A stretch of 48,419 nt of DNA from Sulfurovum sp. (GTDB lineage Bacteria > Campylobacterota > Campylobacteria > Campylobacterales > Sulfurovaceae): NCBI GenBank assembly GCA_012329065.1, contig JAAXPZ010000020.1:1-48419 (forward strand). Reading direction: 5' to 3'. Position numbers and translations under genes: made by a program. Below, one piece after another: positions 4,770 to 5,498 of this stretch; position 1 is the stretch's first letter, and the number at the start of each line of letters is the position of its first letter. The notes under the pieces were generated by a model that saw nothing but the letters and a program-made list of their open reading frames with translations, searched no databases and was not told the DNA's origin.

Positions 4770-5498
4770 ATGTCTAATGGAAAAATAGCGATTGTAGATT
4801 ATAATATGGGCAATCTAGGATCGGTGTTTAATGCTTTTGTAAAAGTAGGAGCCTCAGCAGAGCTTGTATCTGATCCAGATAAATTAATAAATTATGATAG
4901 GGTTACACTCCCTGGAGTCGGTGCTTTTCCAGATGCCATGGATCACCTCCACAGTAATGGCATGAGTGATGCTATTAAAGAATATTCCAAAAGCGACAGA
5001 CCCCTAATGGGTACATGCCTTGGTATGCAGCTTCTATTTGACAGCTCAGAAGAGTTTGGGTACAGCAAGGGACTCGGGCTTATTCCTGGCAAGGTAGTAG
5101 CGTTTGACGAAAGTAAGTTCGACCATAAGCTCAAAGTCCCACACATGGGATGGAATGAGATGTTTTGCAGGGGTCTGACCTCAAATGATTTGTTGCAAGG
5201 CAATGAATCGTTTGCGGGTCTGACCCCTACAAAATCAAATGATTTGTTGCAAGGCAATGAATCGTTTGCGGGTCTGACCCCCACAAAACTCTTTGACGGG
5301 CTGCCTGATGATTTCTATCTATATTTTGTCCACTCATTCCACGCAGTGTGTGATGACAGATATGCCATCGGAAAAACATATTATGGTTATGACTTCGTCT
5401 CAGCAGTACAAAACGAAAATATCTACGGTTTTCAGCCCCATCCAGAAAAAAGTCACGATATGGGGCTGAAGATCATAGAGAACTTTACAAAACTATAG
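4770..5498 (+). CDS. hisH: Imidazole glycerol phosphate synthase glutaminase subunit HisH, with in-frame repeat insertion
   Basis: HisH hydrolyses glutamine and passes ammonia to HisF to make imidazole glycerol phosphate and AICAR in histidine synthesis. The glutaminase features are intact: the PGVGAF oxyanion region at about 48-53, nucleophile Cys83 in GTCLGMQ, and the His-x-Glu of the triad in GFQPHPEKS near residues 226-230. The protein is 242 residues against about 200 for the family. The excess is residues 134-173, between the conserved HMGWNE segment and the LPDDFYLYFVHS segment. It consists of two identical 18-residue units (138-155, 156-173) plus a partial GLT start, encoded by a DNA palindromic repeat. 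Reading frame and catalytic residues survive, so the enzyme is probably functional and the insert forms a surface loop. hisF is not adjacent. hisA follows 53 bp downstream. Confidence 0.93.
   Translation: MSNGKIAIVDYNMGNLGSVFNAFVKVGASAELVSDPDKLINYDRVTLPGVGAFPDAMDHLHSNGMSDAIKEYSKSDRPLMGTCLGMQLLFDSSEEFGYSKGLGLIPGKVVAFDESKFDHKLKVPHMGWNEMFCRGLTSNDLLQGNESFAGLTPTKSNDLLQGNESFAGLTPTKLFDGLPDDFYLYFVHSFHAVCDDRYAIGKTYYGYDFVSAVQNENIYGFQPHPEKSHDMGLKIIENFTKL
5170..5288 (+). repeat. Tandem 54-bp hairpin repeat inserted in frame within hisH
   Basis: Two copies of a 54-bp unit (5181-5234 and 5235-5288) differ at a single base. Each contains a 15-bp stem with an AAG loop (5182-5196 with 5200-5214; 5236-5250 with 5254-5268). 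All three non-Watson-Crick positions in each stem are G-U pairs in the sense transcript. Each is followed by the odd-centred palindrome GGGTCTGACCCC (5216-5227, 5270-5281), and a shorter copy of that box, GGGGTCTGACC, opens the array at 5170-5180. Because 54 is a multiple of three and the unit has no stop in this frame, the hisH frame is preserved. The shape recalls Rickettsia palindromic elements inside genes and REP-type elements. No transposase is present in the window. Confidence 0.9.

Follow-up and report, generated by a model that had tools for sequence, protein, structure and literature searches.

A short palindromic element, probably mobile and predicted to be translated, fills a turn of HisH in Sulfurovaceae

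Introduction

What is a tandem DNA palindrome doing inside the reading frame of a conserved enzyme? The question is raised by hisH of a Sulfurovum sp., a sulfur-oxidising, free-living host, whose product is the glutaminase subunit of imidazole glycerol phosphate synthase. Protein-coding palindromes are best known from the intracellular Rickettsia and Wolbachia, in which weak selection could explain them. The window, the whole stretch of DNA that was analysed, comprises 48,419 nucleotides (contig JAAXPZ010000020.1 of assembly GCA_012329065.1), and an Rfam search of all of it returns tRNA only. With a probability of roughly 0.78, what entered hisH is a small mobile palindrome, non-autonomous and miniature in kind, from a Sulfurovaceae family that is mobilised by resident TIRYT/RAYT-type Y1 (HUH) transposases and translated as a loop.

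Results

Structure of the hisH insert

The hisH open reading frame encodes 242 residues and matches TIGR01855 in a profile search (E 7e-60). The match falls into two stretches with the insert between them, in agreement with the original prediction of an insertion that separates conserved HisH segments and keeps the frame. The features of the locus are as follows.

4770..5498, + strand: hisH, open reading frame with TIGR01855 in two stretches
5170..5180, + strand: left end of the element, GGGGTCTGACC (sequence; GGGGWSAS motif from PMC3733652)
5170..5227, + strand: copy 1, full 58-nt palindrome of class A1, read as RGLTSNDLLQGNESFAGLTP (covariance model R1, 74.8 bits; fold)
5181..5215, + strand: inner hairpin of copy 1, 15 bp with a 3-nt loop (fold)
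5216..5227, + strand: right end of copy 1, GGGTCTGACCCC (sequence)
5235..5281, + strand: copy 2, inner hairpin 5235-5269 and right end GGGTCTGACCCC 5270-5281 (R1 match 5236-5268)
5169..5288, + strand: predicted insert-encoded loop, HisH residues 134-173 (AlphaFold pLDDT < 50 at 136-169)

The tandem palindromic repeat that had been described in frame within hisH is present: GGGGTCTGACC is followed by two 54-nt copies at 5181-5234 and 5235-5288, which are identical at 53 of 54 positions (98%). An earlier description as two 18-codon units plus a partial edge holds for the copies and for the edge at 5170-5180; the natural unit, however, is the full 58-nt palindrome GGGGTCTGACC-hairpin-GGGTCTGACCCC. 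Copy 2 lacks the left GGGGTCTGACC and therefore looks like a tandem duplication. In single-strand folding, each unit adopts the expected hairpin plus box, namely a 15-bp hairpin and the GGGTCTGACCCC mini-palindrome (-19 kcal/mol, z -3.7), and the 131-nt region folds into one long hairpin (-60.9 kcal/mol, z -8.5) whose stability is reached by no shuffle.

HisH had been described as about 40 residues longer than its family. The insert is real, and the net gain is 35 residues (54 versus 19 between HMGW and YxYFVH). It sits at a beta-turn that has six residues in almost all relatives, and because this native turn (VQKETP in relatives) is gone from the insert-bearing HisH, the insert is not a pure addition. 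Cys83, His224 and Glu226 are all in place, which bears out the statement that the catalytic triad is intact. The AlphaFold model, built with 28 homologues, shows a confident core (mostly pLDDT > 90), and residues 136-169, located between two strands, have a pLDDT below 50 and are predicted to be disordered. The closest solved structures to this model are HisH chains (PDB 4gud, prob 1.00). The predicted translated peptide of the hisH loop in Sulfurovum is SNDLLQGNESFAGLTPTK, and a loop of this kind would probably be neutral for HisH activity.

The HisH turn across relatives

Most of the HisH relatives that were read have 19 residues between HMGW and YxYFVH. The loop is missing from nearly all of them, so the possibility that many HisH proteins share the same residues fails. 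The element occupies the turn in six species that do not form one clade. All carry it at the same codons, with two copies in the host (G000) and in G009 and one copy each in G019, G015 and NORP77 (L217); the sixth, G020, has it in frame in a HisH that is cut at the contig edge. On a loop-free HisH tree, the five full-length carriers require at least three gains or losses, and the share of bootstrap trees in which a single branch sets them apart is 0%. Other repeats occupy the turn in G002 and G022. The turn of CiaB follows the same pattern, with other repeats in some species.

The HisH turn is a permissive site, filled either by repeated hits or by local recombinational exchange. The loops and junctions of G000 and NORP77 closely resemble each other on HisH bodies that lie far apart, possibly a sign of local gene conversion instead of two insertions. 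In HisH of G029 (L043), the same turn holds an in-frame GTAGGGGCAGAGCC...CTCTGCCC palindrome that is GTAG-REP-like (GTAGGGGCAGAG), and CiaB of G001 and G002, which belong to the same genus (L274, L275), carries other in-frame repeats, GTCGGGGTGC...CACCCCGAC and GCTGAGCCTGTCGAAGCC, at the turn where further species have the GGGGTC element.

The element family

The unit is not unique to hisH. A search of the 1.94-Mb host genome finds it in other genes and between genes, at about a dozen further places; the pattern GGGTCWG-N30-50-CWGACYCC gives 19 strand matches (13 places) and the reversed pattern gives 0, by which a chance repeat is rejected. A covariance model (R1), built from 11 units, has 33 matches in the host genome when both strands and partial copies are counted, and detects the family in 53 of 150 Sulfurovaceae genomes. 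An exact-pattern scan of ~85,000 species returned 32 stretches, all from Sulfurovum, Nitratifractor or other Campylobacterota metagenome-assembled genomes (MAGs). The elements are 52-58 nt long and form three classes.

Class A: GGGGTCTGACCTC...GGGTCTGACCCC
Class B: GGGGTCWGGTGAYAATGATTTG...TCACCTGACCCC
Class C: GGGGTCWGGTGATTTGTGATTTG...ATCACCTGACCCC, largely intergenic

Copies of class C that do lie in genes have only one or two frames open. The hairpin is maintained by paired changes across the family. Among 144 distinct aligned rows, 92.5% of pair cells are standard and 19 of the 25 pairs have changed on both sides, figures that lean towards structure because rows were fitted to the model and some copies matched on both strands; when the partner is slid by one to three columns, pairing falls to 36-49%.

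The base before GGGG is nearly always A in the listed flanks, and flanks read by eye show this preference and no consistent direct repeat. No clean case of a target-site duplication, such as a MITE of a DDE transposon would have, or of a simple empty site was seen, ~3-4 native residues being missing at HisH and CiaB, and a search for a clean junction in the empty sites of CiaB returned none, as the linkers vary. IS200/IS605-like chemistry is not expected to duplicate its target, in line with these flanks.

Several related arrangements accompany the family. G078 and G096 (e.g. L190, L191) have a related palindrome family of 60-61 nt with 28-36 matches per genome. An intergenic tandem array of class C hairpins with a period of ~49 nt lies on host contig C72 (L012, 116-260), and an 83-nt variant on host contig C60 (L078, 1501-1583) seemingly has another short palindrome nested in the element. 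Longer-loop versions of 70 nt occur several times per genome in genus g6, mostly between genes (L126, 974-1043; L135, L136, L143). G009 (L124, 1433-1489) and G019 (L132, 1025-1081) have a class C palindrome just downstream of hisH, besides the class A copy inside it.

Copies in other protein genes and in structured RNAs

In-frame copies are found in CiaB, PyrD, AlaS, FolC, NFACT, an MnmC2-like protein, an SdhA/FrdA-like flavoprotein, PyrC, RecG, HypF, RdgB and a PD-(D/E)XK protein, and by its family profile an AddB-like protein also has a read-through copy. The family profiles of such open reading frames often match in two pieces that are split at the insert. The flavoprotein, which is named only SdhA/FrdA/NadB-like because its profile scores lie below curated cut-offs, has three separate doubled inserts in the host genome (L009).

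The exact-pattern scan holds 33 class A copies, 23 of them of subfamily A1, whose members sit almost exclusively in genes: 15 in long protein open reading frames, 6 in structured RNA (RNase P RNA or the TPP riboswitch) and 2 elsewhere. One of the latter (L205) reads on, by eye, into the C-terminal end of a YidD-like open reading frame, and the other (L201) lies between genes. All 15 protein copies, which are not all independent as the sample holds some near-identical genomes, are read from the + strand in phase 2 (RGLTS...AGLTP), though 3 or 4 of the 6 frames are open. The same frame throughout 8 unrelated genes has a chance of ~(1/3)^8 = 1.5e-4 if frames are assumed to be equal. A 53-nt variant, A2, has its + frame closed and is read in the open - frame in two open reading frames (L198, L202), presumably AlaS and a phosphomannomutase.

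RNase P RNA carries the element at one shared hairpin tip, which we read as helix P12, in 7 loci (RF00010, 234-285 bits), and both orientations occur there. Two TPP riboswitch loci contain one or two copies (RF00059, 63.5 and 56.3 bits; gathering 54.3). As the element sits both in these RNAs and in proteins, what is tolerated is a loop or a hairpin tip, be it of RNA or of protein.

When species are compared at a single protein site, paired stem changes alter the encoded residues and preserve the pairing. HisH reads LLQGN in G000 versus LSRSD in G009; G015 pairs a D-to-V with an S-to-T change, and CiaB of G028 an L-to-V with an E-to-A change, with hairpin pairing kept in both. When HisH, CiaB and the flavoprotein are taken together, the pairwise differences that are two-sided with the pair kept number 27 and those that break one number 26, compared with 0-6 kept and 73-98 broken in the slid-partner control; the sequences behind these counts are few and lack independence. 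The paired changes could have come about by renewal from other copies, by fresh insertion or by template switching.

Candidate Y1 transposases

The host genome encodes three Y1 transposase genes above cut-off. One of them is bounded by inverted GGGGTCAGGTAACAATYACAA, the host terminal inverted repeat (TIR) being GGGGTCAGGTAACAAT. In about 13 of the 23 Y1 loci that were read, inverted [A/G]GGGTCAG ends flank the open reading frame at a distance of a few bp and delimit an element of ~865 bp. Such loci have the TIRYT arrangement, GGGGWSAS motif included. In the hisH element, the right end on the - strand, GGGGTCAG, fully matches GGGGWSAS, and the left end, GGGGTCTG, has one mismatch.

Termini are shared, to an extent that differs by class, between the palindromes and the transposase elements. 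Several Y1 elements end in AGGGGTCAGGTGATAATGAT, the 20 nt with which class B palindromes open. For class A, the stretch in common with one TIRYT (L256) is only ~10 nt (GGGGTCAGAC). Exact class A ends were found at none of the 23 Y1 loci read, so that the link of class A to transposases rests on relatedness of the ends, and the unit model detects no complete palindrome adjoining Y1 genes (best E 0.06); it is through the bare TIRs that the two are connected. Y1 genes occur in 114 of 150 Sulfurovaceae genomes, and their presence alone does not predict palindromes, which makes the correlation uninformative. The likely mover is a resident TIRYT/RAYT-type Y1 transposase.

Discussion

Proposed origin and rival explanations

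The preferred reading is that a palindrome of ~58 nt, GGGGTCTGACC...GGGTCTGACCCC, was moved as a single-stranded hairpin by a resident Y1 (HUH) transposase, one of those whose own elements are terminated by related inverted repeats (GGGGTCAG...). It would have landed in the permissive beta-turn of HisH with the frame kept, and tandem duplication with a 54-nt period would have followed. Translation would produce a flexible surface loop that leaves the fold and the catalytic triad undisturbed. The in-gene copies that survive may be those in loops or hairpin tips that read through without a stop.

An ancient conserved HisH loop is rejected by its absence from nearly all relatives and by the three or more changes on the tree. 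A single ancient insertion that was inherited vertically, lost many times and is now an inert fossil loop would account for the doubled copies with a similar spacer (TACAAAATC and TGCAAAACC) in G000 and G009, which belong to different genera. It is unlikely nonetheless, as no bootstrap tree unites the carriers, single and double copies are mixed among them, and the stems are still near-perfect palindromes with a species-specific sequence. Positive selection on a peptide that gives HisH or a partner a new function in regulation, localisation or partner binding would fit the polar sequence RGLTSDDLSRSDESSAGLTP and the single frame of all A1 protein copies despite 3 or 4 open ones; this is improbable given that the same peptide occurs in unrelated enzymes, varies (LLQGN / LSRSD) while the hairpin is kept and lies in a loop predicted to be disordered, that the same DNA occurs in RNase P RNA, which is not translated into any peptide, and that unrelated repeats fill the HisH turn in other species.

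Slightly less probable still is an mRNA hairpin that influences his-operon translation or stability and is coding by chance. The + strand fold is very stable (-60.9 kcal/mol), but the hairpin lies mid-gene, at neither start nor end, recurs in many unrelated genes and has both orientations among the structured-RNA copies, for which reasons a regulatory mRNA hairpin is rejected. An artefact of assembly or binning is hardly credible: the host genome does consist of 82 contigs and the named carriers are MAGs, but HisH, CiaB and the flavoprotein each have in-frame copies at one and the same site in independent MAGs from different projects, and the artefact is rejected on these grounds.

Relation to known palindromic elements

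The original prediction likened the insert to the Rickettsia palindromic elements (RPEs). These are 105-146 bp long, with in-frame fusions, insertion also in RNA genes and an active gmk that contains an RPE (PMC2229807), and those of R. conorii end in CGTC (PMC3733652). As far as they are covered in later papers (PMC2229807, PMC10969869), RPEs and the coding palindromes of Wolbachia were described by Ogata et al. (2000, 2002, 2005). The likeness holds at the level of function, that is, palindromic repeats in an open frame of many unrelated conserved protein genes, and in RNA genes. Unlike RPEs, the present element is 52-58 nt long, has GGGGTC ends, belongs to a free-living Campylobacterota family and has a candidate transposase; RPE size, Rickettsia-specific sequence and CGTC tag are all lacking, and the exact-pattern scan finds it in Sulfurovaceae-type genomes only. 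The element appears to work like an RPE, but it is not one, and the two are unrelated in sequence. Since the family is bounded like the local TIRYT/RAYT TIRs, its nearest described sequence relatives are GGGGWSAS TIR repeats (PMC3733652).

TIRYTs consist of a Y1 transposase flanked by inverted GGGGWSAS repeats, and their TIR copies are scattered singly, in dimers or in groups (Di Nocera et al. 2013, PMC3733652). The Y1 genes with inverted GGGGTCAG and the dispersed copies resemble this TIRYT/TIRtron system and correspond to TnpAREP subclass 2.1, a prevalent one among the epsilon, beta and delta groups (PMC6006769). They differ in that the in-frame cases of PMC3733652 are GTAG/CGTC REPs, not TIR repeats, with no almost purely intragenic subfamily reported. 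REPs and REPINs, which accompany RAYTs, are likewise short palindromes and presumably mobilised by Y1 transposases; some of them fall within open reading frames, and dimers encode 20-30 aa (PMC3733652, PMC3116915). The Sulfurovaceae element differs by the absence of a GTAG/CGTC tag and of a GTAG/GTGG tetranucleotide 5' of the hairpin, the unit consensus starting with GGGGTC, and by its form, a palindrome of 58 nt that is long and symmetric where a REP is a short tagged hairpin.

The statement that no such element had been described for Campylobacterota stands in part. In the open literature, with most subscription journals outside it, neither coding TIRYT-type palindromes nor elements of this kind within Campylobacterota core enzymes were found reported, and literal motif strings retrieve unrelated papers only. 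REPs of other types are known, however: free-living bacteria have in-frame GTAG and CGTC REPs, and Sulfurovum sp. NBC37-1 has REPs of both types (PMC3733652). The hisH insert would be a translated TIRYT-type miniature element, and protein-coding palindromes would have arisen also in free-living Campylobacterota.

Biological meaning

More tentatively, A1 may be a gene-dwelling subfamily that exists almost only in coding genes and structured RNAs, is translated in one frame and has its palindrome renewed in place by template switching at the hairpin or by conversion from other copies, with the hairpin conserved by way of paired amino-acid changes while the peptide drifts. If true, residence in essential host genes would protect it from being deleted.

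This is a free-living family with palindromes in core enzymes, a plausible transposase in the same genomes and the same turns filled repeatedly. Together with the copies in RNase P RNA and a riboswitch, this would give the old question of how loops come to be added to working proteins by selfish DNA a defined enzyme with which it can be tested. The insertions also mark natural permissive sites in HisH, CiaB, PyrD and others.
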